A stretch of DNA of 33,688 bases from a virus (IMGVR_UViG_3300021139_000066:1-33688); one strand, 5' to 3'. Shown: positions 3,677-31,215, counted from the stretch's first letter. Program-made: numbers and translations. Notes: a model not told the origin generated them from the letters alone.

Positions 3677-3994
3677 ATGAAGAATATAGAAGTCGAATAT
3701 CTTAACCTGTTACAGGATATACTTGATAACGGAAACAATAAAAAAGACCGGACTGGCACTGGTACATTATCTGTATTTGGTAGACAGATACGGCATAATA
3801 TGAAATTGGGGTTCCCATTATTAACCACCAAAAGGATGGCATGGAAAGGTATTGTACAGGAACTACTTTGGTTCCTTAAAGGAGATACCAATATTAAATA
3901 TCTTGTCGATAATGAAGTTCATATTTGGGATGGTGATTGTTATTCCCGATATTTAAAGGAATGTAAAAAAATAGAGGATAGTGGGGAAATGTAA
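3677..3994 (+). CDS. thyA: thymidylate synthase, N-terminal part of a split gene
   Basis: This is the first third of thymidylate synthase, which methylates dUMP to dTMP using methylene-tetrahydrofolate. The [11 protein letters not shown] motif at residues 25-35 (Arg25 binds the dUMP phosphate), FPLLTTKR, and [15 protein letters not shown] lead to WDGDC near residue 86, all in family order. The protein stops after 105 residues, just where an endonuclease gene is inserted. The rest of ThyA continues from about 4730 in the same reading frame. The last residues (KKIEDSGEM) are not conserved and may be a tail created by the insertion. Either the two halves form a split enzyme, or an intron is spliced out; the short non-coding flanks argue against a full group I intron. 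Confidence 0.9.
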
Positions 3995-3998
3995 TTTT

Positions 3999-4020
3999 TA
4001 TATCCATCACCAAGGATATA
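3999..4020 (+). promoter_or_regulatory. hairpin in front of the homing endonuclease gene
   Basis: TATATCC (3999-4005) and GGATATA (4014-4020) form a perfect 7-bp stem with an 8-nt loop, ending 6 nt before the endonuclease ATG. Hairpins that limit translation are known in front of phage homing endonucleases such as T4 I-TevI. A similar role here is inferred. Confidence 0.45.
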
Positions 4021-4026
4021 TAGAAT

Positions 4027-15238: not shown

Positions 15239-15247
15239 TTGGTTCCC

Positions 15248-15277
15248 CCAGCGAGGCTTCGGTCTCGCTGGTTTTTT
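15248..15277 (+). terminator. intrinsic terminator with UUCG tetraloop
   Basis: CCAGCGAGGC and GTCTCGCTGG pair around TTCG (15258-15261; one G-U pair) and are followed by TTTTTT at 15272-15277. It lies 10 nt after the stop codon of the solute-binding/OmpA gene. Transcription of the genes from 15300 on must come from read-through or a promoter I cannot see. Confidence 0.9.
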
Positions 15278-15299
15278 CAAATCCTTAATTTTAATCGTT

Positions 15300-15494
15300 A
15301 TGACAATAAAAGGATTAAAAGACGCTGGCTTTGAGGTTGAAAAAACTGGGAATAGAAGCTTTACAATTTCTAACAATGGCCAAAAAATTAAAATAGAAAA
15401 GGTAACAGATACTAAGTTCAGGTACAAGAACAACCCGCCGACTCCTTATATCGACGTATTGTTAAACCAAATCAATAATCGAGTCGAGGCATAA
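15300..15494 (+). CDS. small hypothetical protein in the envelope module
   Basis: A 64-residue basic protein of likely alpha/beta type: GLKDAGFEVEKTGNRSFTISNNGQ, a KIKIEKVTD strand, then a C-terminal helix (YIDVLLNQINNRV). No known domain. It sits between the terminator and the ABC permease gene. The alternation of short strands suggests a small globular adaptor; the role is unknown. Confidence 0.55.
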   Translation: MTIKGLKDAGFEVEKTGNRSFTISNNGQKIKIEKVTDTKFRYKNNPPTPYIDVLLNQINNRVEA

Positions 15495-15514
15495 AGCCAA
15501 TTAAAAAAATCCAA

Positions 15515-16384
15515 ATGGAAAAATCAAGAAGTATATTCGCACCAAATTTTATACTGAAGAGATCAAAACAATCCAGAATGATAATAACAATCGTTCAAAT
15601 TTTGGTAGTGCTTCTTTTTCTTCAGTTCCAAAGCAACGACTTGATACCAAGACCCTCTGATGTTGTTCCAGAGGGTCTTGTTGTCGTTGGAGCTCCAGAC
15701 TTTATGCAAAATTTCTGGATAACAGTATTCTTCCTCCTTCGGGGGATGGGAACAGCAACACTAATTTCACTATTCTTTTGTTACATTTATAAAATTGATG
15801 CCTTTAGGGGTTTCAGCGTATTGGTATCAAAATTAAGATACCTTACTTACGCAGGTTTTGTATTTGTATTAACCATGATGCTCCATGATAACGGAGCAAT
15901 TAAATTCTGGGTTTTAGTATGTGGTATAGTCCCTTACTTTGTTACTTCTCTTCTCGCATATATTGACGACATTCCTGATGAGGAATATCAATTGTGCTAC
16001 ACCTTAAAAATGAAAAGATGGGAAGTTCTTTATGAAACAATAATCCGTGGAAAACTACATCTTGCGCTTGAAGTTGTTCGCCAAAATTTTGCTATTGGGT
16101 GGATGATGATAAGCAGTCTTGAAATACTATGTTGGTCTAAGGGAGGATTAGGTACATTATTAACCACAGAAAATCGACACTTTAGAATGGGTAGAGTATT
16201 TGCTATTCTTGCCATTATACTAGGTGTAGCGTGGATATTTGATTACCTATTTAAAGTAATCGGAGTTTGGATATTTCCATATACTAATCCCGATAGGGCA
16301 AGAAAACTTTGGATAAATCAATTATTCCAATTATTCCGGACTAGAAAAATATTTCCTAAGCTTGCTAAAAAAACTTCCAAATGA
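15515..16384 (+). CDS. ABC transporter permease (SsuC/TauC-like)
   Basis: A 289-residue inner-membrane protein with about six hydrophobic helices. It has the cytoplasmic coupling (EAA) loop DEEYQLCYTLKMKRWEVLYE...GKLHLALEVVRQNFAIGWMM near residues 152-200, which in NitT/TauT-type permeases reads 'EAA..LGAS.w......lP.a'. The last 30 residues are basic (WINQLFQLFRTRKIFPKLAKK). The stop codon overlaps the ATG of the ATPase gene (ATGA), so a complex of the two is very likely. Codons for residues about 40-58 contain a long perfect inverted repeat (see findings). An ABC permease is unexpected cargo for a phage. Confidence 0.8.
   Translation: MEKSRSIFAPNFILKRSKQSRMIITIVQILVVLLFLQFQSNDLIPRPSDVVPEGLVVVGAPDFMQNFWITVFFLLRGMGTATLISLFFCYIYKIDAFRGFSVLVSKLRYLTYAGFVFVLTMMLHDNGAIKFWVLVCGIVPYFVTSLLAYIDDIPDEEYQLCYTLKMKRWEVLYETIIRGKLHLALEVVRQNFAIGWMMISSLEILCWSKGGLGTLLTTENRHFRMGRVFAILAIILGVAWIFDYLFKVIGVWIFPYTNPDRARKLWINQLFQLFRTRKIFPKLAKKTSK
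15634..15689 (+). repeat. intragenic two-part perfect inverted repeat
   Basis: CAAGACCCTCTG (15648-15659) and CAGAGGGTCTTG (15669-15680) form a perfect 12-bp stem with a 9-nt loop. Outside it, CAACGAC (15634-15640) and GTCGTTG (15683-15689) add a 7-bp stem across an asymmetric bulge. It lies early in the permease coding sequence and has no T-run, so it is not a classic terminator. Confidence 0.7.
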
Positions 16385-17211
16385 ACTATCAACTTAAAGA
16401 AGTATTAATCTCGGTCGAAAATCTCAATGTATCCTACGGTGATAAAGTTGCTCTACACAACATCAATTTCCAAATCAAAGATATAGTACTTCCTGAAACT
16501 GGAAAGGCTAAGGGTCAAATAATAGCAATCATTGGACCTAGCGGTTGTGGAAAATCCACCCTTTTCAAGGCACTCTCTGGATTTTTAGAATTGACAGAAG
16601 AAAATGGATGCAGTGGCTTTGTAAGAGTAGGAGTAGATCAACACCTTGTACAAATGGGAGAGGTTGGAGTGATTCCACAAAATTATCCATTGCTTAATCA
16701 CCGAACCATTTATGAAAATTTCCATATTGCCTTAAAGGGTAATAATAATAAGGACAGCGTGATAAGTGAGTATAGTAATTATTTTGACCTCTTTGACCAG
16801 CTGCAAAAGTACCCAAGCGAATTATCAGGGGGACAAAGACAACGGGCAGCAATACTCCAACAAATTCTTGCAGGTAATCAAATACTCCTTGCGGACGAGC
16901 CTTATTCAGGCCTGGATTTTGTAGTAAAGGACAAAGTTACCGAACTCCTAATAAAGGCTGCTGACATTACAGAGGAAAACACTATTATCATAGTTTCCCA
17001 TGATATAGAATCCGCATGTGCAATTGCCGACCATGTTTTCGTACTTGGATCTGATGGAGTAAATCCAGGATCAACAATACTTAAAACTTATGACTTTTTA
17101 GAAGAGGACCTTGCATATCATTCTGAGATACGTGAAATGCCGAGGTTTCGACAAATAATAGGTGAAATAAAAACCTTGATGTCCAATTCTTTAGTACACA
17201 CTATCCAATAA
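16381..17211 (+). CDS. ABC transporter ATPase
   Basis: A 276-residue nucleotide-binding subunit with every motif intact: Walker A GPSGCGKST (52-60), Q-loop Gln100 in IPQN, signature LSGGQRQR (148-155), Walker B ILLADEP (168-174), D-loop SGLD and His207 in VSHD. It matches the NitT/TauT (nitrate/sulfonate/taurine) branch in length and order. It hydrolyses ATP to drive the permease encoded just upstream, which it overlaps by 4 nt. An insert near residues 33-46 (KDIVLPETGKAKGQ) before the Walker A strand is somewhat longer than usual. The substrate is unknown. Confidence 0.9.
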   Translation: MNYQLKEVLISVENLNVSYGDKVALHNINFQIKDIVLPETGKAKGQIIAIIGPSGCGKSTLFKALSGFLELTEENGCSGFVRVGVDQHLVQMGEVGVIPQNYPLLNHRTIYENFHIALKGNNNKDSVISEYSNYFDLFDQLQKYPSELSGGQRQRAAILQQILAGNQILLADEPYSGLDFVVKDKVTELLIKAADITEENTIIIVSHDIESACAIADHVFVLGSDGVNPGSTILKTYDFLEEDLAYHSEIREMPRFRQIIGEIKTLMSNSLVHTIQ

Positions 17212-17234
17212 CAATTAAACAATTAAACAAAACA

Positions 17235-18005
17235 ATGAAACATTTTTTATCAATGCTCGTTTTAATTATCCTCGCCTCGACAGCAGTCCACGCCCAGGAT
17301 ATCTTGGTTCTCCGAAGTGGGAATACAATGAAGGTACAAGTAGTAGAGGTTGCAAAAAAGAACGTTCGGTATTATGATTGGGGGAGTAAAACACAAAGGG
17401 TATATGTAGTACCCGTTTCTGATATAATCTCAATTAAATATGCAAATGGTACTACACAAACATTTGACCAGGAAAAAACAGAAAAAGCTAGGGTAGATTC
17501 TTTCGGAAGACATACTAAAAGCTGGACCTTTAATGGCGGTGGGGGTATAATCCTTAGTAACACTTCTGTAGACAAATGGAAGGGTGGCGTAAGCGGCGGT
17601 TTGGAACATCAATTTGGTTACCAGATGACTAATAACGTTAATCTTAGTATTGGCGGGGAATTTATGTATTTTTCCTCTCAAACAGATACTTCTACGGTGA
17701 AGGAAAAGTCTGGGAATACATTGTATCGTATTAGTTATCTTGGAATTCCAATAACCCTCAATTTAGTTGAATTGGGAAAACCCAGCGGACTCTATTTCTC
17801 GGTTGAGGTATCACAGGGTGTTAGGTATTGTAATCAACTAGTAAAACAGAATCTTTCGTATGCTATCAAAGGTTCGTTCTCCGGAGGAGTAGGACTTAAA
17901 ACAGGCAGAACGTATTTCCAAATAGGGGCATACGCAGAATACATCTCCTTTGGTAGTAACTATGACGGGCTTGGATATGGAATAAGGGTAACAACCATCC
18001 GTTAA
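17235..18005 (+). CDS. outer-membrane beta-barrel protein with signal peptide
   Basis: A 256-residue protein. Residues 1-20 (MKHFLSMLVLIILASTAVHA) form a clear signal peptide, with cleavage after AHA-like VHA before QDIL. The next part (ILVLRSGNTMKVQVVEVAKK, then VRYYDWG and PVSDIISIKYANGTTQTF) is a short N-terminal domain common in secreted Bacteroidota proteins. From about residue 95, alternating strands (GGGGIILSNTS, GVSGGLEHQFGY, NLSIGGEFMYF, SFSGGVGLKTG, YFQIGAYAEYISFG) look like a small outer-membrane barrel, ending in a strand at IRVTTIR. It would give the module an outer-membrane part. A phage-borne barrel protein of this kind is rare. Confidence 0.75.
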   Translation: MKHFLSMLVLIILASTAVHAQDILVLRSGNTMKVQVVEVAKKNVRYYDWGSKTQRVYVVPVSDIISIKYANGTTQTFDQEKTEKARVDSFGRHTKSWTFNGGGGIILSNTSVDKWKGGVSGGLEHQFGYQMTNNVNLSIGGEFMYFSSQTDTSTVKEKSGNTLYRISYLGIPITLNLVELGKPSGLYFSVEVSQGVRYCNQLVKQNLSYAIKGSFSGGVGLKTGRTYFQIGAYAEYISFGSNYDGLGYGIRVTTIR

Positions 18006-18047
18006 AACCCCTTTATAATTATTTTATAAAATCTTTAACAACTATAA

Positions 18048-18079
18048 TTTTTTTATTCAGAATACAAATTGTATATTTG
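18048..18079 (+). promoter_or_regulatory. promoter, recurrent phage class
   Basis: T7 (18048-18054), a 17-nt spacer and TATATTTG (18072-18079), a full match to the TAnnTTTG box. Upstream bases AAATCTTTAACAACTA match those ahead of the copies at 11449 and 31248. It drives the two paralogous PstS-OmpA genes; the start codon is 43 nt downstream of the box. Confidence 0.75.
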
Positions 18080-18121
18080 CTGTATTAAATTAATTATTAA
18101 CAATCAAAAAACAAAAGCGTT

Positions 18122-19483
18122 ATGGCACTCAAAATGAAGACCGGCGGTAAAGTATTTTTCCTCGTATTAATCCTTGCAATAGCAGGAGGAGGATATTACA
18201 AATACTACACATCCCACCCCCACCCAACGAGCTCGGGTAATGATCAGGTAACATCCTCATCAGGAGCTACACAACAGACAGCAGAAGTCCCACAGAGCAC
18301 TTCTATTCTGAAAATTGCCGGTTCTAATACAATTGGCGACGTACTGGCACCAGCACTTTGTAAAGGCTGGATGGAAAGCACTGGTTATTCCAACGTCCAG
18401 ATACTTAATACCGGTAAGGATGAAAAGGCAGTAGTTGGAACGAAGAATGGAAAAACAGACCGTGTGGATATTTCAGCCCATGGAACAAGTACCGGCTTTT
18501 CATCCATCTCTAATGGCGGTGCCAGTATTTGTATGGCTTCTTCCAAAGACAACACCGGTAATTATAATGAACACGTTATTGGCCTGGACGGTATAGCAGT
18601 TATCGTCAGTAACAGTAGTTCTATCAACACATTAAGTATGCCGGATTTACAAAACACTTTTAGTAGTGGTAATTCCATATACAGAATGGACGATAATAGT
18701 GGAACCTACAAAGTTTTTAAAGAGGTTGCAATGGCTGGCCGCGAAATTAATGGCAATGCAAAAAAGTTCGCATCTGGAGCTGAGTTAGCAACTGCTATAA
18801 GTAGCGATGCAAATGGTGTTGGCTTTGCCAGCTACACTTTCCTTTCAACCTCGGGGATAAGAGCAGTACCAATCAGTATTAGCCCTGGTATGCCTGGTAT
18901 AATTCCAAACGCTTTGACCATCCAGTCGGAAAAATACCCTCTCTGCAGAAGGCTGTATATGTATACTCCGAAACAAGCAGACCAAACAGCAGGATCTTTC
19001 CTAAATTATGTAGAATCTGCCAATGGACAAGCGGTCGTACAAAACAGCGGCTTTATCAATCTAACGGTCAATGTTAATAATAATAACGATAATCCAATAG
19101 GTATGCCAGGAGATCCACCAGCTTATACTAACTTGATTAATACTGGTAAGAAGATAACTACAGAGTTCCGGTTCGAATTTGGGGGAACAACACTGGATAG
19201 TAGGGCACTGGCAGACGTAAGTAGGGTAATATCTTTCCTTTCCCAATCCGAGAATAGGGGTAAGAAATTAATACTCGTAGGCTTTACTGATAACGTAGGT
19301 GATGTAAACAAAAACACTGCACTATCGCTCACCAGGGCAAATACGGTAAAGAGTGTACTGACAGCAAGGGGAGCAGATGTAAAACAAGTACTCGGATTTG
19401 GGCCATTACGTCCGGTAAGAGGAAATGCTACACCGGAAGATCAGGCAAACAATAGGAGAGTGGAGGTTTGGTTGACTAACTAG
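18122..19483 (+). CDS. phosphate-type (PstS-like) binding protein fused to an OmpA domain
   Basis: A 453-residue protein. Residues 1-30 (MKTGGKVFFLVLILAIAGGGYY) form a membrane anchor very similar to that of the 607-residue protein. Residues about 60-310 match PstS-like binding proteins: LKIAGSNTIGDVLAPALCKGW, DDNSGTYKVFKE (the SGT motif that contacts phosphate in PstS), GVGFASYTFL and YPLCRRLYMYTP. Residues about 335-453 are an OmpA-like domain (EFRFEFGGTTLDSRALADVS, GFTDNVGDVNKNTALSLTRA, NNRRVEVW). It would be anchored to inner membrane and cell wall. Phosphate or a related oxyanion is the most likely ligand, by inference. The last codons lie inside a terminator hairpin. Confidence 0.8.
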   Translation: MALKMKTGGKVFFLVLILAIAGGGYYKYYTSHPHPTSSGNDQVTSSSGATQQTAEVPQSTSILKIAGSNTIGDVLAPALCKGWMESTGYSNVQILNTGKDEKAVVGTKNGKTDRVDISAHGTSTGFSSISNGGASICMASSKDNTGNYNEHVIGLDGIAVIVSNSSSINTLSMPDLQNTFSSGNSIYRMDDNSGTYKVFKEVAMAGREINGNAKKFASGAELATAISSDANGVGFASYTFLSTSGIRAVPISISPGMPGIIPNALTIQSEKYPLCRRLYMYTPKQADQTAGSFLNYVESANGQAVVQNSGFINLTVNVNNNNDNPIGMPGDPPAYTNLINTGKKITTEFRFEFGGTTLDSRALADVSRVISFLSQSENRGKKLILVGFTDNVGDVNKNTALSLTRANTVKSVLTARGADVKQVLGFGPLRPVRGNATPEDQANNRRVEVWLTN

Positions 19484-19498
19484 TCAACTAAACCTTTT
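19465..19498 (+). terminator. terminator hairpin overlapping a stop codon
   Basis: GGTTT-G-GTTGACT (19465-19477) pairs with AGTCAAC-T-AAACC (19482-19494), one G-U pair inside a 13-bp stem, loop AACT, then TTTTAT. The TAG stop of the PstS-OmpA gene (19481-19483) falls at the loop. Terminating ribosomes would melt it, so it may lower expression of the second paralogue or act in a translation-dependent way. Confidence 0.65.
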
Positions 19499-19546
19499 AT
19501 TCATATTTTAACAATCATCAATTAACAAAATCAACAAATTTCAATC

Positions 19547-20899
19547 ATGGCAATTCGTATGAAGCCCGCAGGAAAGATTATTACATTAGTACTGTTCATT
19601 GCAGCAGGAGTAGTAAGCTTTCAAATGTACCGGAATTACAAGGGCATTTCCGGAGACTCCCCAGGGAGCTTATTAACACCAAGTTCTTCCGATAACATTA
19701 TCCTAACAATTGCAGGTTCAACCGTTATGTCGGAAGACCTTGCACCGGAACTGGCACAAGGATATATGGAAGAGAACGGTTATGAAAATGTAACCATTAA
19801 CAATCGTGGAGCGGCTGGATCCGAAGTAACTGGAACTCTAAAAGGCAAAAAGGAAAGTATCCTAATCCAGCCAGTTGGAAATTCCGCAGGAATGACAGCC
19901 ATAAGCGAAAAGAAAGCAGACATAGCTATCTCTCTTCTCGAAGCACCGGCTAACAACAATGACGAAGAAAAGGAGGTCGGTATGGATGCAGTCGGTATTA
20001 TAGTCTCCAAAGATAATAAGAATGTTACTGCCCTATCCGTCGCAGAAATAGCAGATATATTTGAGGGAACTTCTTCCACAAAAATGAACCTTTATGTATT
20101 GGATAAAACAAATGAGTATTACGAATTCTTCGACCAGGAGATAATGGAAAAGAAGAGGATTAGCGCTACCGCAAAAGGATTTTCTGACGAGAAGGAATTG
20201 CTAGATGCGGTAGCAAAAGATCCAAATGGCATTGGATTTGTAGACTATGAGTTCCTTAAAAATACAGGAATAAGAGTTGTACCAATTAAAGAAACAGCTA
20301 CTTCTTCTCCAATACTTCCTAATGACTTAACTATACAAAGCGAGGAATATCCTTTGGCTATGCGTATTTATATGTATTCTTCCGAGAAGCCTGATAATCC
20401 TCATATACAAAAATTCCTCGATTGGATCGAAGAGGACGAAGGCCAGGATATTGTTGAAAAAACAGGTTTTGTTAATTTTGATGTGGAATTTATTGATGAT
20501 ACTAAAAATCCCGAAGTAAATGATACTGATCCCCCAGAGTATAAAAAATTAGCCGCAAACGGTAAAATGATTTCTACCGAATTCCGTTTCGAGTATGGAG
20601 GTTCAACATTGGATAGCCGGGCAAATGACGATATTGAAAGGGTTATTAAATTCCTTTCGAAGGATGAGAACAAAAGAAAATCCCTGGTACTTGTTGGCTT
20701 TACAGATAATCAAGGAAATCCTGCCGGAAATATAGGACTTTCTTTAAATAGGGCTAATACACTACGGGACGCTCTTAAATTACATGGAGCCAAAATATCC
20801 AGAACACTTGGCCTCGGATCAGCAATTCCACTACGTGATAATGGAACGGAAGAAGGAAGAGCAGAGAATAGGAGGGTGGAAGTTTGGGTTGAAAACTAA
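19547..20899 (+). CDS. second PstS-like/OmpA fusion, diverged paralogue
   Basis: A 450-residue paralogue of the preceding gene with the same plan: N-terminal anchor (MKPAGKIITLVLFIAAGVVSF), PstS-like domain (LTIAGSTVMSEDLAPELAQGY, GIGFVDYEFLKNTGIRVVPI, EYPLAMRIYMYSS) and OmpA-like domain (EFRFEYGGSTLDSRANDDIE, GFTDNQGNPAGNIGLSLNRA, ENRRVEVWV). Where the first paralogue has DDNSGTYKVF, this one reads LDKTNEYYEFF, so the SGT phosphate contact is lost and the ligand may differ or be absent. The protein is more acidic, with many Glu and Asp residues. The OmpA parts are more alike than the binding parts. A strong bidirectional terminator follows. Confidence 0.8.
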   Translation: MAIRMKPAGKIITLVLFIAAGVVSFQMYRNYKGISGDSPGSLLTPSSSDNIILTIAGSTVMSEDLAPELAQGYMEENGYENVTINNRGAAGSEVTGTLKGKKESILIQPVGNSAGMTAISEKKADIAISLLEAPANNNDEEKEVGMDAVGIIVSKDNKNVTALSVAEIADIFEGTSSTKMNLYVLDKTNEYYEFFDQEIMEKKRISATAKGFSDEKELLDAVAKDPNGIGFVDYEFLKNTGIRVVPIKETATSSPILPNDLTIQSEEYPLAMRIYMYSSEKPDNPHIQKFLDWIEEDEGQDIVEKTGFVNFDVEFIDDTKNPEVNDTDPPEYKKLAANGKMISTEFRFEYGGSTLDSRANDDIERVIKFLSKDENKRKSLVLVGFTDNQGNPAGNIGLSLNRANTLRDALKLHGAKISRTLGLGSAIPLRDNGTEEGRAENRRVEVWVEN

Positions 20900-20928
20900 T
20901 AGTAACAATTATCGATCTATATAAAAAA

Positions 20929-20956
20929 CCCTGACCATCCAAGGTCAGGGTTTTTT
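20929..20956. terminator. intrinsic terminator, bidirectional
   Basis: CCCTGACC (20929-20936) and GGTCAGGG (20943-20950) form a perfect 8-bp GC-rich stem with loop ATCCAA. The stem is flanked by A6 on the left and T6 on the right, so it can work on both strands. It ends the envelope module. Confidence 0.9.
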
Positions 20957-21035
20957 GTGGTGTTAAAAACTCTTGCGTTTCTCTCGAGAAACTTTGATTA
21001 CAGGTTTTGATATAATAATTATAACAAAACTTGAA

Positions 21036-21410
21036 ATGAACGCAACAGTAATTGACGACCCGATTTATTTTGAAATTCTCGCGGAGAGACAAAGGCAAGA
21101 GATGAAATGGGGTCAACAGGATCACCCTTCTGTTGACCCCATTTTGACGGGGAGAAATGGAGGTGCAACGCCAGATAGGCTCTGTCAGGAATACGAGATT
21201 CCTACAGAACACAGAGCAAAGTTTCTATGCGATAATGCGGCTGGTAAAAATGTGCTCACTTGGAGCCATATTTTAGTGGAAGAGCTTTCTGAAACTATTT
21301 CTGCATTTGACGACAAAACCCGAAGAGCAGAGCTTATACAAGTGGCCGCAGTAGCCATAGAATGGATTCAATCGATAGACAGGAAAAATAAAGAAAATGG
21401 TTCAAAATAA
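21036..21410 (+). CDS. MazG-like NTP pyrophosphohydrolase
   Basis: A 124-residue protein of the all-alpha NTP pyrophosphohydrolase type. ERQRQEMKWGQQDHP (about residues 17-31) and LVEELSETISAF...RAELIQVAAVAIEWIQ (about 80-115) match small phage MazG-like proteins; the paired Glu residues (EELSE) bind Mg2+. The reaction would be hydrolysis of a (d)NTP to the monophosphate and pyrophosphate, which can feed phage DNA synthesis or blunt the host stringent response. ATG 21036 is chosen; the frame is open further upstream, but those residues are not family-like. The coding sequence holds a perfect 15-bp inverted repeat (see that entry). Confidence 0.7.
   Translation: MNATVIDDPIYFEILAERQRQEMKWGQQDHPSVDPILTGRNGGATPDRLCQEYEIPTEHRAKFLCDNAAGKNVLTWSHILVEELSETISAFDDKTRRAELIQVAAVAIEWIQSIDRKNKENGSK
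21105..21144 (+). repeat. perfect 15-bp inverted repeat inside the MazG-like gene
   Basis: AAATGGGGTCAACAG (21105-21119) and CTGTTGACCCCATTT (21130-21144) are perfect reverse complements, with a 10-nt loop. The right arm ends in TTTTG, so as RNA it looks like an intrinsic terminator inside a coding sequence. It encodes part of the conserved KWGQQDHP segment. Confidence 0.75.
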
Positions 21411-21693
21411 TTATAGTATATCATTAATAAACTCTTATACCGAAGATCCTGCAAAGGATGCAGAAGAACTCTATACCTTACCTGTCCTATCAATCGAGGA
21501 GGAAAATGGAAAATGGTATTTTAAAGACTCTATTGGTAATAGAGCTCCGACTACAAAAGAGACTATTAAACAGTTTGTTTTTGGTTGTGAGAGAATTAAA
21601 GTATTTGGAGCAGTATATCTATATTTGATTTATTATCCACAACACAAACCTCCAACCCGTAAATTAGAGGAACTAAAAGCCAAATTAGCATAG
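21397..21693 (+). CDS. hypothetical protein
   Basis: A 98-residue protein overlapping the MazG-like gene by 14 nt. A beta-like first half (LPVLSIEEENGKWYFKDSIG) is followed by a helix with an aromatic core (FGAVYLYLIYYP) and a charged tail helix (RKLEELKAKL). Not recognised. Position and overlap suggest co-expression with the nucleotide hydrolase. Confidence 0.6.
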   Translation: MVQNNYSISLINSYTEDPAKDAEELYTLPVLSIEEENGKWYFKDSIGNRAPTTKETIKQFVFGCERIKVFGAVYLYLIYYPQHKPPTRKLEELKAKLA

Positions 21694-21695
21694 GT

Positions 21696-22433
21696 ATGTA
21701 TGATCCAGCAACAATCGCGGATTTTAAGCGGAGAATTAAGGAATTTCCTTTAGAGGAATTAAGGGATACTGGTTTGAAGTGTCCCATTGAAGGAGATCCT
21801 CTTTTCTACATAGGACAAATAGATGAAGAGGCTCCAGGTAGAATTACGTATTGCTCTATGAGAGATGGTATTTTTCAAAGAGTCTATACCAAAGAAAAAG
21901 AAGAACCTTATTATAAAACTAATTGGGATTCTTTTGATAGCCAAGGAGAGAGTAAATGGCCGGTCTATAGAAATAGATTTTTTGTTCCAGATTCTTCTGG
22001 TCTTTGGACAGAATTTAAGACTCATTTCACTTGGGCAAGTAATCAATCTACAATCTATCTTCCGGTAGATATGTCTGAGGAAGAGGTAAAAAAGACTATA
22101 GAGATTCTCCAAGATGAAGAAGGAGGAGTTGGTAATATAATGCCAATAGCAGCCAGGGTAGCAGCCAAAACAATTGGTATGGATTTGGTTGCAGTAACAC
22201 CGATGTCTGGACCTAAAATGTCATTGATGTATTTGGATTATACCTATCCTGGATTAAAGTATGAATACTCAAATAGGCAAACACCTAGAAGACCAAGAAG
22301 AAAAAAGAACATTCGATTTATAAAAAAGAAAAATGGAACAGATAGAATTATTCCTGGAAGGAAATCACGAATACACTTATACCAAGGAGGAAAAAGATGG
22401 AAAAGAAATCCATACACTCCATTACTCCAATAA
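21696..22433 (+). CDS. hypothetical protein with a probably frameshifted C-terminus
   Basis: A 245-residue protein, unknown. The first 205 residues look normal (FYIGQIDEEAPGRITYCSMR, IYLPVDMSEEEVKKTIEILQ). After RRPRRKK the last 40 residues are basic and unstructured (PGRKSRIHLYQGGKRWKR) and overlap the next gene by 101 nt. One base less in the A6 run at 22301-22306 would give a stop codon TAA at 22320-22322 (tail KRTFDL), 10 nt before the next ATG, as elsewhere in the window. A recent indel or a sequencing error is likely. Confidence 0.6.
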   Translation: MYDPATIADFKRRIKEFPLEELRDTGLKCPIEGDPLFYIGQIDEEAPGRITYCSMRDGIFQRVYTKEKEEPYYKTNWDSFDSQGESKWPVYRNRFFVPDSSGLWTEFKTHFTWASNQSTIYLPVDMSEEEVKKTIEILQDEEGGVGNIMPIAARVAAKTIGMDLVAVTPMSGPKMSLMYLDYTYPGLKYEYSNRQTPRRPRRKKNIRFIKKKNGTDRIIPGRKSRIHLYQGGKRWKRNPYTPLLQ

Positions 22434-24375: not shown

Positions 24376-25296
24376 ATGAAGAGTTATCTAGAATATACTA
24401 AATTATTAGAAGATACTAACGTTCCTATCTTACCTGCTGGCGATACTCCAAAAGATTCACCGGCAGAGGTCTATAAGGATATAATTAATTTGGATTATAA
24501 GGATTTTATTAACGTCTTGAGTAATGACGTTAAGAATCCTCGTATAGATCATTTGTTAAAGGCTGGATTAAAAGATGGTAAGCCAGACGATGAGAAAATG
24601 AAATTTACTAAGGAGATTATAAAAGTGAGTGATTTAAGACCAACCCAAAGAGAAATAGATCTAGATAAATCCTTAAAAGTACAATTAACCGCACAGTATC
24701 CGGATCAAATAGATATGATTTTAGATGGTAAATCTGTTGAAGTGAGGGGTCCAATAGTAACTTTAAATTCCAAATATATTATTGATGGACACCATAGATG
24801 GTCTCAAATTTATGCTATGAATCCCCAAGCTAATATGTCTTGTGTAAATATAAATTTTGATATAAGTCCGATAGAAGCATTAAAAACCGTCCAAATGGCA
24901 ATAGCTGCCGAAGTTGGGTCTGTTCCTGTCGAACATGTTGAGGGAAAAAATATGTACGATTGTAGAAAGTATGATATTTACAAATATGTAAAAAAACATA
25001 TTTGTAAATTAACCTATGACAAATTAGTAGAATTTAAAAAAATTCTTCCACACGAAGAACATAATATGGCTAATCAAACAGCAGCTAGGTATTTCTGGAA
25101 AAATATTCACACAATGCAAAAAATATCCCAGCCTGCCAAAGGATCCCCAGATAGAGGACTAATGCCACAAACGGAATATGCCCCCAACTGGGAAAAGACC
25201 TTAGCATCTGGTGAAATTAATTTCAAGGATCCTTTCAATTCTGTAAAAGAATCTAAAATTCCTAAATATAGTGATTTTATAAACTTAAAGCGGTGA
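24376..25296 (+). CDS. ParB/sulfiredoxin-like nuclease-fold protein with capsid-targeting N-terminus
   Basis: A 306-residue protein. Residues 1-12 (MKSYLEYTKLLE) resemble the T4 capsid-targeting peptide (MKTYQEFIAE) and end in a predicted prohead-protease site LLE|D. The IKVSDLRPTQREID segment (82-95) and IIDGHHRWSQIYAMNP (135-150) match the ParB/Srx fold, whose GHHR motif binds phosphate or nucleotides. The C-terminal half is helical and ends YSDFINLKR. If the targeting call is right, it is packaged in the head and could enter the host with the DNA. A perfect 14-bp inverted repeat lies at 24976-25009. Its 3' end overlaps the convergent terminase gene by 12 nt. Confidence 0.65.
   Translation: MKSYLEYTKLLEDTNVPILPAGDTPKDSPAEVYKDIINLDYKDFINVLSNDVKNPRIDHLLKAGLKDGKPDDEKMKFTKEIIKVSDLRPTQREIDLDKSLKVQLTAQYPDQIDMILDGKSVEVRGPIVTLNSKYIIDGHHRWSQIYAMNPQANMSCVNINFDISPIEALKTVQMAIAAEVGSVPVEHVEGKNMYDCRKYDIYKYVKKHICKLTYDKLVEFKKILPHEEHNMANQTAARYFWKNIHTMQKISQPAKGSPDRGLMPQTEYAPNWEKTLASGEINFKDPFNSVKESKIPKYSDFINLKR
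24976..25009 (+). repeat. perfect 14-bp inverted repeat inside the ParB-like gene
   Basis: ATTTACAAATATGT (24976-24989) and ACATATTTGTAAAT (24996-25009) are perfect reverse complements with a loop of six A. It is AT-rich and lies inside coding sequence (IYKYVKKHICKL). Confidence 0.65.
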
Positions 25297-26379
25297 TAAT
25301 CCCAATTTCTGTATATCGTCCGGGGTTAATCCCATAAACTTAGTGAGTATAAATTCTCTGTTAAAAAACGGGGCGCCTTCTCCAGTCTGGATCTCTAACA
25401 TTTTTTCGACACGAGCAAGCCTTTCTGTTATTAGCTCTAGCGTATTTCCTGTTGTTGTCTTTGCTGGATTATCTTCTTTCTTTTCTGGCTCCTCCTTTTT
25501 TTCCTCTGGAGCATTACCAAAAGAAAGGCCGTATTCCCTATCAAATAATTCTTGTGATCCAAGATTCATCGTTTCTGCCTTTTTCCACGCTTCATCTCTC
25601 CCCGGGACTAACCACCAGTCTATTCTATGTGGATAGAATACATTTTTTCCATTTATAGCATCATTATAAATTTCCCAGAACTTATTACGTCCATTTGGTG
25701 TAGATTGTACTATTAATTGTCCATCACTACTTGCTAACATTTGTCCAAATGCCATCATATAGACATCATTAAAACTATTATATGGTATATGAGCAGCTTC
25801 ATCAATATAGACAAGATCAAAAGTATAACCTAATGCAGGTCCTTTTGATGATCCTTTTGCTATTACCCTAGCCCCATTATCAAATACAACAGAGGTTTGA
25901 TTCCAAGCCTGAACTCCAGGCTTCATATAGAATGGTAAGTTTCTATAAATAGTTTTAATTTTGTCAAGAACCTCTACTCCACTATCCCTATTATTATTAA
26001 CTAATAATATCTTTTTTCCTTCTAAAATTTTACTCATACAATAGATAGCTTCCATAATGGTTTTACCCGTTTGCCTAGCTGCCATTGTAACAATAAACCT
26101 ATATTTCTTTTGGGCTGTTAAATATTCTTCCTGATACTTGTGTAGTTGGATTTGTTTAATTCCTTCATAAGTGTTCACTTTACAAAAGGAATTGGCAAGA
26201 TGAATAATATCTTCCTTTACTTTTGCAATAGATTCTAATTCTTCCACCGTTAGATCAAATAGTAGATTACCTTTCTTTAGTTCGATGTCATTTTGATAAA
26301 AAGGTGTTTCGTTAAATAGACTTGTATCATTACCTAAATCGTTTTTGATAAAGTCTATTATTTTGGTACTGTGGATCAT
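25285..26379 (-). CDS. terminase large subunit ATPase domain without nuclease domain
   Basis: A 364-residue protein with the T4 gp17-type packaging ATPase: adenine-motif region QLHKYQEEYL, Walker A AARQTGKT (about 100-107), GVEVLDKIKTIYRNLPFYMK, Walker B LVYIDEAA (189-196, with catalytic Glu) and coupling motif STPNG (226-230). The RNase H-like nuclease domain, which should follow from about residue 300, is missing. Instead there is a charged Glu/Lys linker, a short coiled coil (TLELITERLARVEKMLEIQT) and a FMGLTPDDIQKLGLSPL tail. The usual length is 500-610. Either the nuclease is encoded elsewhere (split gene) or this is a paralogue. It is on the minus strand with the 26381 gene, 1 nt apart. 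Confidence 0.8.
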   Translation of the reverse strand: MIHSTKIIDFIKNDLGNDTSLFNETPFYQNDIELKKGNLLFDLTVEELESIAKVKEDIIHLANSFCKVNTYEGIKQIQLHKYQEEYLTAQKKYRFIVTMAARQTGKTIMEAIYCMSKILEGKKILLVNNNRDSGVEVLDKIKTIYRNLPFYMKPGVQAWNQTSVVFDNGARVIAKGSSKGPALGYTFDLVYIDEAAHIPYNSFNDVYMMAFGQMLASSDGQLIVQSTPNGRNKFWEIYNDAINGKNVFYPHRIDWWLVPGRDEAWKKAETMNLGSQELFDREYGLSFGNAPEEKKEEPEKKEDNPAKTTTGNTLELITERLARVEKMLEIQTGEGAPFFNREFILTKFMGLTPDDIQKLGLSPL

Positions 26380-26380
26380 A

Positions 26381-26788
26381 TTAAAATAATTTTATTGTTT
26401 CGGGGTGTCCAATACTTCCATATCTTCCATCCTCCGTAATATCTAAGTTTTTAAATACGTAAGAAACCTTGATTCTCATACATCCTTCTCCTTCATAATC
26501 GCCGGCAAATCCGGTAGTACTAATAAACTCGGTTTCTCCTTCTAATTGGAAGTAAACATTTCCACTTTTGTCAAAATGCCTTATTCTAATTTCTTTGGAT
26601 GCCTTTAGACACTCAAAGTTTTCTATAAATTTTCCTTGGCTAACTTCCATATCAACCCAAAGAATTCGATCTTCTATTTTATAGGATATTACATACTCAG
26701 TTAAACCAATATAAGTAATACCACCGTCACAGAAGTTCATCTCAAATTGATTAAGGTAATATGGTTCTAATTTTTGTGATGGATACAT
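26381..26788 (-). CDS. hypothetical protein, co-transcribed with the terminase ATPase
   Basis: A 135-residue, beta-rich acidic protein (YVISYKIEDRILWVDMEVSQ, IRIRHFDKSGNVYFQLEGET, CMRIKVSYVFKNLDI). It ends 1 nt before the terminase gene start, so both belong to one minus-strand operon. The composition and strand pattern would suit a virion structural protein, but I recognise no family. Confidence 0.6.
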   Translation of the reverse strand: MYPSQKLEPYYLNQFEMNFCDGGITYIGLTEYVISYKIEDRILWVDMEVSQGKFIENFECLKASKEIRIRHFDKSGNVYFQLEGETEFISTTGFAGDYEGEGCMRIKVSYVFKNLDITEDGRYGSIGHPETIKLF

Positions 26789-26813
26789 GATTATTTTTTT
26801 TCTTATACAGGAA

Positions 26814-26844
26814 AAAATATAGAATGTTTCATATATATCAAAAA
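26814..26844 (-). promoter_or_regulatory. minus-strand promoter for the terminase operon
   Basis: Read on the minus strand: T5 (26844-26840), an 18-nt spacer and TATATTTT (26821-26814). The layout equals the recurrent plus-strand promoter, with T in place of the final G. It would start a leader of about 20 nt before the ATG at 26788. It overlaps back to back with the promoter at 26849. Confidence 0.4.
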
Positions 26845-26848
26845 TATA

Positions 26849-26880
26849 TTTTTTAATACAGAAACTTTTTATTATATTTG
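26849..26880 (+). promoter_or_regulatory. promoter, recurrent phage class, nearly leaderless
   Basis: T6 (26849-26854), an 18-nt spacer containing GAAAC, and TATATTTG (26873-26880). The RNA ligase ATG begins at 26889, only 8 nt after the box. With the usual distance from box to start, the mRNA would have a leader of only a few bases. Confidence 0.7.
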
Positions 26881-26888
26881 CTTTGTGT

Positions 26889-27536
26889 ATGAAATATAAT
26901 AGAACATATCATTTTCCATTTTCCCCTGGCGCTACTAGTGATGACAGGATAGCTCCTTCTGTGAGTAGATTAATTGGTGTACCGATAATTGGTACAGAGA
27001 AATTGGATGGTGAGAATACGGATGAAATGACTTTGGGTGTGTATGCTCGTAGTCATGCAGCATTTACCATATCTCCTTGGTCTCGGGCAGTAAGGGATTT
27101 ACATGCGAGGATAGGACATCAAATTCCAGAGGGTGTTCATATTTTTGGAGAAAACATGGAGGGTATTCATAGTATTGAATATGAAAGATTACGGTCTTAC
27201 TTCTATATGTTTGGGATTAGGGAAGAAATGAATTGGCTTTCCTGGCCAGAAGTGGAAGAATACGCTTTCTTATTCGATTTAATAACTGTTCCCGTTTTAT
27301 TTAGAGGAGTAGTTAATACTGAGAAAGAATTAAAGGAATTGGTAGAAAAATTAGCTAAGGAACCATCTGCATTAGGAGGAAAAAGAGAAGGTGTGGTATT
27401 TAGAACAGAAGCAGGTTTTCCGGATACTGATTTTGGTGAATGTGTGTTAAAATGGGTAAGAGAAGGACATGTTCAAACTGATGAGCATTGGACCCGAAAT
27501 TGGAAACGGGCTAAATTGTATTTCGATGGTGAGTGA
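26889..27536 (+). CDS. ATP-dependent RNA ligase (Rnl2-like family)
   Basis: A 215-residue nucleotidyltransferase. Motif I is TEKLDGEN with Lys38 as the nucleotidylated residue, followed by GVYARSHA, motif III HIFGENMEGIHSIEY, motif IIIa YFYMFGI, motif IV REGVVFR and motif V VLKWVREGHVQTDEHW. It seals RNA (or tRNA) breaks by an enzyme-AMP intermediate, as in phage repair of host nuclease damage. It is shorter than T4 Rnl2 (334) because the C-terminal domain is missing. ATG 26889 is chosen over an in-frame TTG at 26883 that would add only LC. Confidence 0.85.
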   Translation: MKYNRTYHFPFSPGATSDDRIAPSVSRLIGVPIIGTEKLDGENTDEMTLGVYARSHAAFTISPWSRAVRDLHARIGHQIPEGVHIFGENMEGIHSIEYERLRSYFYMFGIREEMNWLSWPEVEEYAFLFDLITVPVLFRGVVNTEKELKELVEKLAKEPSALGGKREGVVFRTEAGFPDTDFGECVLKWVREGHVQTDEHWTRNWKRAKLYFDGE

Positions 27537-27537
27537 A

Positions 27538-27789
27538 ATGAGAAAATGGGAGATTGAGCAAATCTTTAAGAAATATGGATGGTATCACAGTATAGAGAAC
27601 CCATATACATTCGTAAATTTTAACAGTGGTCATTTCGCAATTATTGGAGTACCAAAAATTCCAATTCAGGAACAAAAATGGAGTGTTTATATTTGGACAA
27701 AAGGTGAATATAATGGTATAAGTTATTATCGTTATGAAGATCTTCTAAAAAGATTAGAAATGTGGCCTCCATTCGAAAGAATTAAGTAA
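27538..27789 (+). CDS. small protein, tandem paralogue 1 of 3
   Basis: An 83-residue protein. The N-terminal helix (MRKWEIEQIFKKYG) is followed by strands (KWSVYIWTKGEYNGISYYRY) and the C-terminal signature LLKRLEMWPPFERIK. The next two genes share the C-terminal block: an aromatic strand, then YY/DL..(K/R)LE..P.FERIK. ATG 27538 is preferred, 1 nt after the RNA ligase stop codon; ATG 27526 in frame is an alternative. Function unknown. Confidence 0.65.
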   Translation: MRKWEIEQIFKKYGWYHSIENPYTFVNFNSGHFAIIGVPKIPIQEQKWSVYIWTKGEYNGISYYRYEDLLKRLEMWPPFERIK

Positions 27790-27790
27790 T

Positions 27791-28060
27791 ATGCAATCAG
27801 AAGAACCAGGAATAATATTAAAGGAATATGGGTTTACTTATGTTCCTTTAAAGAATAAAGTTTACTATAATCCGATTACTGAATACTATGCAAAGGTATT
27901 AGAAAATACCCCCGTGAATTCAAGTATTTTCAGTTATCGGAACAGGTATAGTGTTTATTTCTGGAAAAAAGATAAGCCAAGTGATGGCATAAATTATTTC
28001 AAACGCATAGATTTGATAAGAAAACTAGAAGAAGAACCAGAATTTGAAAGGATTAAGTAA
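27791..28060 (+). CDS. small protein, tandem paralogue 2 of 3
   Basis: An 89-residue paralogue of its neighbours: IILKEYGFTYVPLKN at the start, RYSVYFWKKDKPSDGINYFK in the middle and DLIRKLEEEPEFERIK at the end. The junctions before and after it share the bases ATTAAGTAATATG, as expected for gene duplication. Function unknown. Confidence 0.65.
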   Translation: MQSEEPGIILKEYGFTYVPLKNKVYYNPITEYYAKVLENTPVNSSIFSYRNRYSVYFWKKDKPSDGINYFKRIDLIRKLEEEPEFERIK

Positions 28061-28061
28061 T

Positions 28062-28346
28062 ATGTTTAGCCCCAAAAGTTTTAAATGTCCGATGTCCGAA
28101 AATGGCAAGGACAAGTTTGAAAGATTATATCATCTTCTTATAAAAGAGGGGTTTAATCGTATTGATCCCGATACGGATCTATACGAAGGTAGTAATGGAT
28201 TTTATCTCCAGGTTGGTTCTTCTGGCGGGGGAGATGGGTGGGTAGTTAATTTGTGGAACCCCGGAGCTAAACATCGAATTTATTGGGATTATTATCAATT
28301 AGTAAAAAGACTCGAGGAACTTCCGGTTTTTGAAAGAATTAAGTAA
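28062..28346 (+). CDS. small protein, tandem paralogue 3 of 3
   Basis: A 94-residue paralogue: FERLYHLLIKEGFNRIDPDT, GGDGWVVNLWNPGAKHRIYW, and the end QLVKRLEELPVFERIK. It is the most diverged in its N-terminal half. ATG 28062 is chosen because it reproduces the TAATATG junction of the previous pair; an earlier TTG (28044) would overlap the neighbour. Confidence 0.65.
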   Translation: MFSPKSFKCPMSENGKDKFERLYHLLIKEGFNRIDPDTDLYEGSNGFYLQVGSSGGGDGWVVNLWNPGAKHRIYWDYYQLVKRLEELPVFERIK

Positions 28347-28384
28347 TTGCCATTTGAATATATAAGGAAAAGGATATTAATCAA

Positions 28385-29371
28385 ATGGAAAGGATCAAAT
28401 ACTTTAGCGAATACCTTAATGAGGGCGACGATTTTGAAAATAAGTTAATGGAGGCTTTGTATATAGCATTACCATTAGAAGATAAGGAATACTTATCATT
28501 AAGTGATTTAACAGAGTACCAAATAAATGAGAGCTTTTTAGACTCCATTCAATCTAGGGGTAAAAAAGTTTTAGATAGGATTATTAGTATATCTAAGAAT
28601 ATTACTGATTTCTTATCCAAAATTAAAAGTCAACTTAGTACTCATTTGGTAAATTATTTTAGTGCAGCAAGGACTCATTTGAAGGAAAAGGTATTTAAAA
28701 ACCCAAAGTTAGAAAAGATAATAAAGGAAAAAATTAGTGCGGATAGAGTAGCTTTTTTAAATGATTTGAGAACTTGTAAAAATGTTTTCAATTTTTATAC
28801 TGATGACTTTTTTGCACCATTTATTAGTAAAATTATACATTCATTACGTAACCATTTCTTGAGTAAGAAAGTTACAGAATCTTTGATTAATGAAAAATTG
28901 AATGTTGATGTTGTTGATAAAGTTGTATTAACTATTACTGAAAAACCACCATTTCTTTGGTTAACTGATATTCATGAGTTGTCAACTAAGGGAACAGGTA
29001 AATTAATACAAGGCCTTTCCTATGTAACTAATAAACTAGGGGGTCCAGAATTTGTATTACCTGTTATCGCCTCGATCGTTGGATTATATCTTGAGCATGG
29101 TGTAGAAGGTATAATCACAATGGGAATTGCTAAGGTTATCGAATTCTTTACAATCCCTTTTGTTGCTATTGTAATAGAATTTATAGGTCATATAGCATTG
29201 TTATTAACAATATATGAACTTTGTGTAGAACTATCAACTTCTATAGATAAGTTTGAAGAAAGATATAAACACCATCACAATCATACTGAACCAGTAAAAC
29301 AAACAGTCAATGTCGACCAAGCAGGACCAGAAACGGTGGAAAAAGATATTCAATCAGGATTGCCTCAATAG
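28385..29371 (+). CDS. membrane-active internal protein with capsid-targeting N-terminus
   Basis: A 328-residue protein. Residues 1-13 (MERIKYFSEYLNE) resemble the T4 capsid-targeting peptide and end at a predicted protease site LNE|G. A helical middle (IISISKNITDFLSKIKSQLS) precedes a long hydrophobic region at about residues 220-285 (FVLPVIASIVGLYLEHGVEG, MGIAKVIEFFTIPFVAIVIE, FIGHIALLLTIYELCVEL), probably two or three membrane helices. The tail has HHHNHTEP. If packaged, it might be released with the DNA and enter the host membrane; this is inferred. GAATATATAAGG lies 18 nt before the start codon. Confidence 0.55.
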   Translation: MERIKYFSEYLNEGDDFENKLMEALYIALPLEDKEYLSLSDLTEYQINESFLDSIQSRGKKVLDRIISISKNITDFLSKIKSQLSTHLVNYFSAARTHLKEKVFKNPKLEKIIKEKISADRVAFLNDLRTCKNVFNFYTDDFFAPFISKIIHSLRNHFLSKKVTESLINEKLNVDVVDKVVLTITEKPPFLWLTDIHELSTKGTGKLIQGLSYVTNKLGGPEFVLPVIASIVGLYLEHGVEGIITMGIAKVIEFFTIPFVAIVIEFIGHIALLLTIYELCVELSTSIDKFEERYKHHHNHTEPVKQTVNVDQAGPETVEKDIQSGLPQ

Positions 29372-29624
29372 GGATGGCAATAAGTGTGTTTTCTGTCACG
29401 TTACAGAGAGTTTAGACGTACATCATATTACAGATAGGCATGAGATGCCAAATGGCGGTTTTGCACCTTCTAATGGCATTACCGTGTGTTCTGAGCATCA
29501 CTGGAACGCAGAGCAATTCCATATAACGGGAATATCACTTCCTGGATTTAGTCCAGAAGAACTTTATACAAAAATCGGGTCTTCTTATGAGAAGGCCTAT
29601 TTCGATTCAGAAAATTTACAATAA
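29310..29624 (+). CDS. HNH endonuclease
   Basis: A 104-residue HNH nuclease. GNKCVFCHVTESLDVHHITD contains the first zinc Cys pair (CVFC) and the catalytic HH. FAPSNGITVCSEHHWNAEQF supplies the Asn and the second zinc pair (C..HH). The short basic N-terminus (KQDQKRWKKIFNQDC) probably contacts DNA. It overlaps the preceding gene by 62 nt and the next by 1 nt (ATAATGG), so it is a compact freestanding endonuclease gene, possibly for homing. Confidence 0.8.
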   Translation: MSTKQDQKRWKKIFNQDCLNRDGNKCVFCHVTESLDVHHITDRHEMPNGGFAPSNGITVCSEHHWNAEQFHITGISLPGFSPEELYTKIGSSYEKAYFDSENLQ

Positions 29625-30685
29625 TGGCAATAAAAGATCCTTACGAAACGTTCCCTGTATACAAGGAACTAAGAGAAAGTTTGAACACAACCAAAGATGG
29701 TCGAGACCTCATGGCAATCCTCTATAAAAGAAAATTACCGGAAGGCTATCTTTTAAAAAGCACAGATAGGTTTTATATAGACCTCGGGAGTAAAACGTAT
29801 TTAAGAAAATTACCAGATGGGCGATGGTATTATACTGCATTGAGTGATGGGCGACCTTTTTCCCAAATGTATTATAATACAATGGAAGAAATGCTAAAGG
29901 ATGTTTGGATTAAAGGGGTTGTTAAAAGAGCTCCACATGATGTAAAACAAGCAGATTTTAGAAAATGGCTACAAGATCCGAATTGTCCCGCTCGTGGGAA
30001 GGAATTGAAAATACAGGATATAACAATAATGTATCTAGAATCCCTTGGGGAAGGTTACTATATTAAAAATGCGGACTCTATATTTGACGATCCAAAATGG
30101 AAAGAAATTTTTAATTTTATTGGAACAGAGAAAAAGATTAGTAATGATGGATTATTTAGACCAACATTAAGTCTAGGCCTTTTATTACCATGGGATGAGA
30201 AAGCACCAAATTTTGGTTTTTGGGAAAAACTACTATTACCTTATTTTGGTAATGATAAAACTCAATTAAGATTTGGAATGATTAGACAAAATATCCACAT
30301 TATTGTTAAATCCTCCCCAAAAATGGGTAAATTAACATGGGAACCTAGCAATGGATCCTATGAAATCTTAGTTGGTGCAAAAACCAAAGAAGAGATGGAG
30401 AAGAAGGTCATTGAAACCATTGTTAAAATTATAAAAGGATCTCAATTCATACTAGAACGGAATTATGAGGATAATCTAATTGCAAAATTAATGGTATCTT
30501 TATTTAGTGGAGCAGAGGAACCAACTAATCATTGGGCAAAGGGAATGGCAGATTTTGTTTTGGAAAATCCAACAATGCTCGAAAAGATTCCATCTAATTA
30601 TAGAAAGATAGTTATGCAAGAAGCAGGCATCTCTGAAGACCTGGCAGGCACTATAGAATATGCCAATTATATTGGGCTCCTATAG
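29624..30685 (+). CDS. hypothetical protein
   Basis: A 353-residue soluble protein, not recognised. It begins MAIKDPYETFPVYKELRESL, has beta-rich middle parts (LRKLPDGRWYYTALSDGRPF and FGMIRQNIHIIVKSSPKMGK) and a helical end (DLAGTIEYANYIGLL). It has no membrane segment or known catalytic motif. It lies between the HNH gene and a capsid-targeted gene, so a virion part is possible but unproven. Confidence 0.6.
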   Translation: MAIKDPYETFPVYKELRESLNTTKDGRDLMAILYKRKLPEGYLLKSTDRFYIDLGSKTYLRKLPDGRWYYTALSDGRPFSQMYYNTMEEMLKDVWIKGVVKRAPHDVKQADFRKWLQDPNCPARGKELKIQDITIMYLESLGEGYYIKNADSIFDDPKWKEIFNFIGTEKKISNDGLFRPTLSLGLLLPWDEKAPNFGFWEKLLLPYFGNDKTQLRFGMIRQNIHIIVKSSPKMGKLTWEPSNGSYEILVGAKTKEEMEKKVIETIVKIIKGSQFILERNYEDNLIAKLMVSLFSGAEEPTNHWAKGMADFVLENPTMLEKIPSNYRKIVMQEAGISEDLAGTIEYANYIGLL

Positions 30686-30699
30686 GGATATATAAACTA

Positions 30700-31215
30700 A
30701 TGAAACCTCTTAAAAATTTCGGTCGTTTTATAGTTGAAAATACACTATTTGATCCAGGTACTTTTGAAACTATGCTAAAGGATGCAATAAGACAAAAACC
30801 GGGTGATCCATTATATGTTGAAAAACAACTAGCATTGGGAACTGTTTCTCACATGAAAATGATTGCCAAGAAATTGGGGCTACATGTAATAGTTATTAGT
30901 GCAGAAACAATCACCGACAAAGGGAAGAGCTTTGCCAAATTTCTCCAAGAAGAACCTATAGAGAAAACCTTGGTCATTTTTAATGATATGGAAAGTGCTC
31001 CTGAAGAAACTATATCTTTTATAGAAAATTCCATCGGTGCAAGAAAGGTATTGGATACGCCAATATCGGATCTATATTATTTTGCAGAGGTTCATTTAAT
31101 TGATAAAGGAATTGCTAATTATAAAAATGACCAAACCTCTGTTGTTTATGACAATCCTGAATCCTCTACCATTATCAAACCTAGAAGTGGAAATGGGGGT
31201 GGAGTTATTAGTTAA
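30700..31215 (+). CDS. putative internal head protein with capsid-targeting N-terminus
   Basis: A 171-residue protein. Residues 1-13 (MKPLKNFGRFIVE) resemble the T4 capsid-targeting peptide and end at a predicted protease site IVE|N. The rest has an alpha/beta pattern (LGLHVIVISAETITDKGKSF, then TLVIFNDMESAPEETISFIE) that recalls part of an AAA+ core without a P-loop. The Gly-rich tail is RSGNGGGVIS. GATATATAA lies 3 nt before the ATG. Its stop codon lies in an AT-rich hairpin loop. Confidence 0.55.
   Translation: MKPLKNFGRFIVENTLFDPGTFETMLKDAIRQKPGDPLYVEKQLALGTVSHMKMIAKKLGLHVIVISAETITDKGKSFAKFLQEEPIEKTLVIFNDMESAPEETISFIENSIGARKVLDTPISDLYYFAEVHLIDKGIANYKNDQTSVVYDNPESSTIIKPRSGNGGGVIS

Follow-up and report, generated by a model that had tools for sequence, protein, structure and literature searches.

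Does this locus encode proteins that are brought into the phage head by T4-like capsid-targeting sequences (CTS), trimmed there by a gp21-type protease and delivered into the host? The window, that is the whole stretch of 33,688 nucleotides analysed here, is a 33.7-kb virus record of a giant uncultured T4-related phage. A preliminary description had proposed such sequences at three N-termini, belonging to genes that are named here after their start positions: 24376 (24376-25296, 306 aa), 28385 (28385-29371, 328 aa) and 30700 (30700-31215, 171 aa). Translation of the open reading frames returned all three, with exactly the peptides described (Table 1; arrows mark predicted cuts).

Internal head proteins of the T4 type bear an N-terminal CTS of about 10-19 residues. 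In T4, gp21 cleaves after (L/I)xE, and mutants of the internal protein IPIII assign targeting to residues 4 and 7 and processing to residues 8 and 10 (PMC9026906). In all three window peptides residue 4 is hydrophobic or aromatic and residue 7 aromatic (the 4/7 rule), and the end is (I/L)xE, as LLE12, LNE13 and IVE13, respectively. Of the predicted proteins of the window, 3/50 fit the pattern M[KRE]x[LIVYF]xx[FY]..E at the N-terminus, compared with 1/227 internal methionines (p=0.019); a looser version fits 5/50 and 3/225 (p=0.006). No other window N-terminus combines the 4/7 rule with a Glu site; the sole further one with the 4/7 pair, that of a probable homing endonuclease at 4027, is without the Glu site.

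Table 1. Predicted features of the three tagged genes and of the neighbouring terminase (window coordinates)
Feature	Position	Strand	Remarks
Predicted late-promoter -10 element, ATATATA box GATATATAA	24365..24371	+	11 nt before 24376 ATG
Predicted capsid-targeting propeptide MKSYLEYTKLLE	24376..24411	+	Y4, Y7; cut LLE↓D13
Predicted mature part of 24376 product, ParB/sulfiredoxin-fold protein	24412..25296	+	AF2, fold matches, 49 viral loci
T4-type terminase ATPase domain	25285..26379	-	Pfam, PHROG and relatives search
ATATATA box	28358..28364	+	27 nt before 28385 ATG
Predicted capsid-targeting propeptide MERIKYFSEYLNE	28385..28423	+	I4, F7; cut LNE↓G14
Predicted mature part of 28385 product, helical, hydrophobic C-half	28424..29371	+	Alignment with G002 and LR745206 homologues
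ATATATA box GGATATATAA	30688..30694	+	12 nt before 30700 ATG
Predicted capsid-targeting propeptide MKPLKNFGRFIVE	30700..30738	+	L4, F7; cut IVE↓N14
Predicted mature part of 30700 product, possibly degenerate AAA+ domain	30739..31215	+	Inspection only; near VWA protein at 31759

The window phage and its relatives

The terminase of the window is of the T4 type, and its ATPase domain places the contig among the T4-related phages. The nearest terminases are those of phage PAU, of Tenacibaculum and Chryseobacterium jumbo phages and of three uncultured phages of 634-642 kb. A 46.8-kb contig (G001) encodes all three proteins at 100% identity and prolongs the sequence of the window phage, and a 61-kb contig (G002) represents a relative. 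The 634-kb genome LR745206.1 carries a head maturation protease (match to phrog_207, E=4e-30) together with a major head protein, and a gp21 relative was also found on the 374-kb contig G003.

The terminase large subunit has 364 aa in the window and 336 aa in G002 (55791-56801), ATPase part only, and 710-735 aa in LR745206 and PAU. Its nuclease half may have been split off or lost; the profile of the terminase nuclease family PF17289 gave no match, which is not proof of absence because the same model also misses the full-length terminase of LR745206. A 245-aa frame at 21696-22433, retained in G002, contains a piece of a T4-type major head protein (phrog_138, residues 147-190, E=6e-4) amid unrelated sequence. 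At 13415-20899 there is a run of OmpA-domain proteins, two of them with PBP_like_2 (periplasmic-binding) domains, adjoining an ABC ATPase and a protein that resembles ABC permeases; together they make up a transporter-like gene set carried by the phage. A thymidylate synthase at 3677-5677 is interrupted by the probable homing endonuclease (4027-4743), its two parts covering 2-90 and 82-265 of the profile. The endonuclease has a weak NUMOD1 match and an ATATATA box of its own; the arrangement is reminiscent of T4 td/I-TevI, and Rfam called no group I intron.

Tagged N-termini beyond the window

The same N-terminal pattern, sought in more of the genome on the 46.8-kb contig, was found at 6/64 N-termini and 0/294 internal methionines (p=3e-5). 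Scored against a profile of the LR745206 tags, the window peptides reach 3.4 bits (30700), 1.3 (28385) and 0.6 (24376), and the last is nearer to T4 IPIII (MKTYQEF) than to that profile. Because each lineage has its own tag and the profile transfers poorly, the 4/7 rule was used for comparison, matches at predicted N-termini being counted against internal methionines of the same genome. In LR745206 it fits 92/855 N-termini and 24/3297 internal methionines (p=4e-43), typical tags being MKYLKKYKLFE↓S and MKHLKKFNE↓S. The counts are 27/436 and 11/2439 (p=9e-15) for G003, which also holds MKRLKTFESFIVE↓N, close to the 30700 tag, and 6/64 and 1/294 for G001. T4 itself has a small excess (5/220 and 4/980), and the enrichment in G002 alone is slight (4/97 and 2/342). 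In phiKZ and crAss001, two phages without a T4-type protease (phrog_207 gave no match in either), N-termini are not enriched over internal methionines. Mel-JY01, which carries a homologue of 24376, has no MK-type N-terminal enrichment; its homologue begins MGILKQLLKE, which is another kind of tag, if one at all.

A pattern-free test in LR745206, counting proteins alike in their first 12 residues and dissimilar further in, gave 199 proteins, against 29 and 40 at offsets of 30 and 50. The codon use of these tags matches that of the genome, so that they are kept as peptides and not as copied DNA; an origin by DNA copying at gene starts was rejected on this ground. Pfam assigned no family to any of ten large tagged LR745206 proteins. 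One tagged gene of the window phage encodes a CHAP domain, and two AAA+ genes (CobS-like, PHROG 249) and a weakly CobT-like protein adjoin it (G001, 16599-21953).

Phage PAU (NC_019521) serves as a yardstick. The tag MK[TSG][LI]xxL[YF]E(xKLNE) is present on 19 of its 287 predicted proteins, among them the scaffold and four of the five internal capsid proteins (p=7e-5), as named in a record that does not state the basis of the annotation. Position 7 is Leu and not aromatic in the PAU tags, thus the tag differs between lineages. N-terminal sequencing has shown that the PAU major capsid protein is shortened from 585 to 520 residues (PMC5646251). The site LME64↓N in this protein predicts 521 residues, within one residue of the sequenced form, and INE44↓N is found in the corresponding region of the capsid protein of LR745206.

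Proteins behind the tags and the box before them

The preliminary description held that ordinary domain search would find none of the three proteins. This is true of the 28385 and 30700 proteins, which have no Pfam match, but the 24376 protein does match ParBc_2, at 20.4 bits and below the cut-off of 23.6. It is for this reason not filed under that family; its fold assignment rests on the AF2 model (pLDDT 85), in which a short helix and a linker of poor order (residues 1-27) precede a ParB/sulfiredoxin fold. The best VIA-align scores are to free serine kinase (Z 5.5), sulfiredoxin (5.1) and ParB (4.8); down to Z 3.8 all matches are members of the ParB/sulfiredoxin superfamily or its structural-genomics entries, and unrelated ones appear from 2.9. 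ParB/sulfiredoxin-fold domains are nucleases, NTPases or kinases, and the 24376 protein is likely a nuclease, nucleotidase or kinase of this fold acting early in infection.

Relatives of the 24376 protein are encoded at 49 viral loci and, with Mel-JY01, 29 are left once near-duplicates are removed; the motif IIDGHHRW is invariant in the family. An [IL]xE site is present in the first 30 residues of 23 out of 26 homologues, compared with a mean of 11.2 (maximum 19) in shuffles and 3.4 (maximum 10) in inner segments of equal length. The N-terminal extensions are unlike one another (MLKLKNLLRE↓A, MIKLKSLLLE↓T, MKNFYEMLKLIE↓Q and MRHLKKFNQLNE↓S are examples), and yet the site recurs, so that one mature domain bears different CTS-like heads. 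The poorly ordered C-terminal tail of the protein, SKIPKYSDFINLKR (25249-25293), is itself tag-like (KYSDFIN). In T4, the Alt protein undergoes processing at its two ends.

The 28385 protein is about 70% identical in G002. At the sites of both 28385 and 30700 the P3 and P1 residues are retained there, the former reading YLNE↓G in the window and YLDE↓N in the relative, with Leu at P3 and Glu at P1. The LR745206 homologue of 28385 has a distinct tag of its own, MKHIRNFDNYKKQRLLQE. A second cleavage-like site, INE49↓SF, with the last base of codon 49 at 28531, is conserved in G002, and LR745206 has LNE↓GF at this place; the 28385 protein is probably cut twice. Residues 2-122 have a weak match (E=0.006) to a PHROG annotated as virion structural protein, and the protein is likely a membrane-acting internal protein. 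An AF2 model built from two sequences was discarded (pLDDT 38), leaving no confident fold. The 30700 protein is 80% identical in G002, and its tag is nearly invariant, which adds little because the rest of the protein is equally conserved. Database searches with it gave no match, and no solved structure matched 28385 or 30700 by sequence. By inspection, and with no search in support, it resembles a degenerate MoxR/CobS-type AAA+ domain; its likely role is to interact with the host or to serve as an accessory to the phage's MoxR/VWA-like genes.

Over the window, G002 and the remaining part of G001, a box ATATATA starts 45 nt or less upstream of 12 of the 14 tagged genes and of 11 of the 190 untagged ones (p=1.4e-11). 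The tagged genes of both phages were chosen by eye on the basis of the peptides, and their upstream DNA was inspected only afterwards. With orthologue pairs counted once, it precedes 8/10 tagged genes; several of the untagged genes with a box look by inspection like homing endonucleases. In LR745206 the box TAATATAT lies within the same distance of 42/94 tagged and 98/761 untagged genes (p=3e-12), with 0 and 6 occurrences, respectively, in a control stretch at 52-97. It is also found upstream of gp21 (as TAATATA), of a portal-like gene and of several of the largest genes. By their distance upstream of the start codon, the TAATATA boxes of this genome form two groups, at about 11-19 nt and at about 25-42 nt; the nearer group is relatively commoner among tagged than among untagged genes (27/94 and 50/761). 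No clear box of the LR745206 kind was seen in PAU or G003.

The T4 late promoter is TATAAATA, and an element of this type is seen upstream of T4 gene 24. Both TAATATAT and the ATATATA box are similar to it, and the latter may be regarded as a putative T4-like late promoter element. Because its distance to the ATG is short, the messages of the tagged genes are suggested to be leaderless or nearly so.

Predicted head targeting and delivery, and known systems

The enrichment of tags alongside gp21/gp23, the (I/L)xE sites of the 24376 homologues, the tags of PAU and the promoter-like box all support a T4-like capsid-targeting function, and we consider it quite probable, judging from sequence, that the three proteins carry T4-style CTS. 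Peptide, enrichment, recurrence on homologues and box were computed directly. According to our model the tagged genes would be transcribed late, from promoters with the ATATATA box shortly upstream, and the N-terminal peptide (hydrophobic 4, aromatic 7) would bind the prohead core. A gp21-type protease would then cut behind the Glu of (I/L)xE, which is residue 12 or 13, and the mature protein would remain with the DNA in the head and most likely enter the host. The contigs of the window phage and of G002 are both genome fragments on which no gp21 was found, and the protease of the window phage is for this reason deduced from its relatives. Injection, rather than retention in the head, is less certain than targeting, but on balance it is what we predict.

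It is rather unlikely that the tag directs proteins to the head for a role in assembly or capsid retention with no injection. A tag of similar kind is present on the scaffold and annotated internal capsid proteins of PAU, and IPIII of T4 influences head assembly (PMC9026906). The tagged set is however large and variable, no orthologue of 24376 being present at the corresponding place in G002, and the tagged CHAP-domain and ParB-fold proteins look enzymatic and not like scaffold. The peptide could also sort proteins to, or mediate their interaction with, some phage structure other than the capsid core (replication compartment, membrane or chaperone), as might be suggested by the many LR745206 tags which end in FNE↓S and not in (I/L)xE. 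This we regard as improbable, given that the geometry equals that of the tested T4 CTS, that such tags are found on the PAU scaffold and internal capsid proteins, that (I/L)xE recurs and that the promoter-like box is common to gp21. Chance, meaning that amphipathic N-termini with IxE or LxE are common and three were chosen by eye, is very improbable: the 4/7 rule, with internal methionines and shuffles as controls, speaks against it, as do the test on homologues and the association with the promoter-like box, even if LxE is frequent (ten (I/L)xE sites in the 28385 protein alone) and the loose pattern already fits five window N-termini.

About a tenth of the predicted proteins of LR745206 are tagged, and with up to about a hundred tagged proteins in one genome a large unexplored protein set is probably injected into hosts. 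That large T4-related phages have spread a compact cassette of a late-promoter box near the ATG and a capsid-targeting peptide of 10-13 codons to the front of very many unrelated genes, and that one huge phage accordingly loads and injects ~100 different proteins, a delivered repertoire far exceeding that of T4, is a tentative proposal to which we give slightly less than even chances. With a readable tag, probable injected effectors could be listed for testing among the uncharacterised proteins that giant phages encode, and host-takeover or anti-defence proteins could be sought by tag and box rather than by homology. The principle is already known from T4; what is new, as far as we found, is the number of tagged proteins per phage and the link to a promoter box, and no account of CTS-like tags in huge phages was found in the open-access literature.

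Several known systems are related to the one described. In the phiKZ-like phage SPN3US many head proteins are reported to be cleaved after Glu and ejected (PMC10052503); their propeptides differ from the present ones, and phiKZ has no N-terminal tag enrichment in our analysis. For the delivered ParB domains of polyvalent proteins a function as NTP-regulated DNases has been proposed (PMC5512222). The DdrB-like ones share the ParB/sulfiredoxin fold with the 24376 protein, itself predicted to enter with the DNA, but the latter is a stand-alone protein of 306 aa with the IIDGHHRW motif, a CTS-like N-terminus and no polyvalent architecture. PAU is similar in having a lineage-specific tag common to scaffold and internal proteins and one of the T4-type terminases nearest to that of the window; it differs in tag residues 7 (Leu) and 8 (Tyr/Phe), and no homologues of the three window proteins were found in it. 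The closest parallel is with IPI-IPIII of T4, whose CTS MKTYQEFIAE is cut by gp21: a short N-terminal peptide with hydrophobic or aromatic residues 4 and 7 and (I/L)xE is shared by otherwise unrelated proteins. The window tags are of 12-13 residues instead of the 10 of T4, the mature proteins are unrelated as far as searched, a promoter-like box is close upstream of the tags in the window phage, and a relative has roughly 90 tagged proteins where T4 has a handful.
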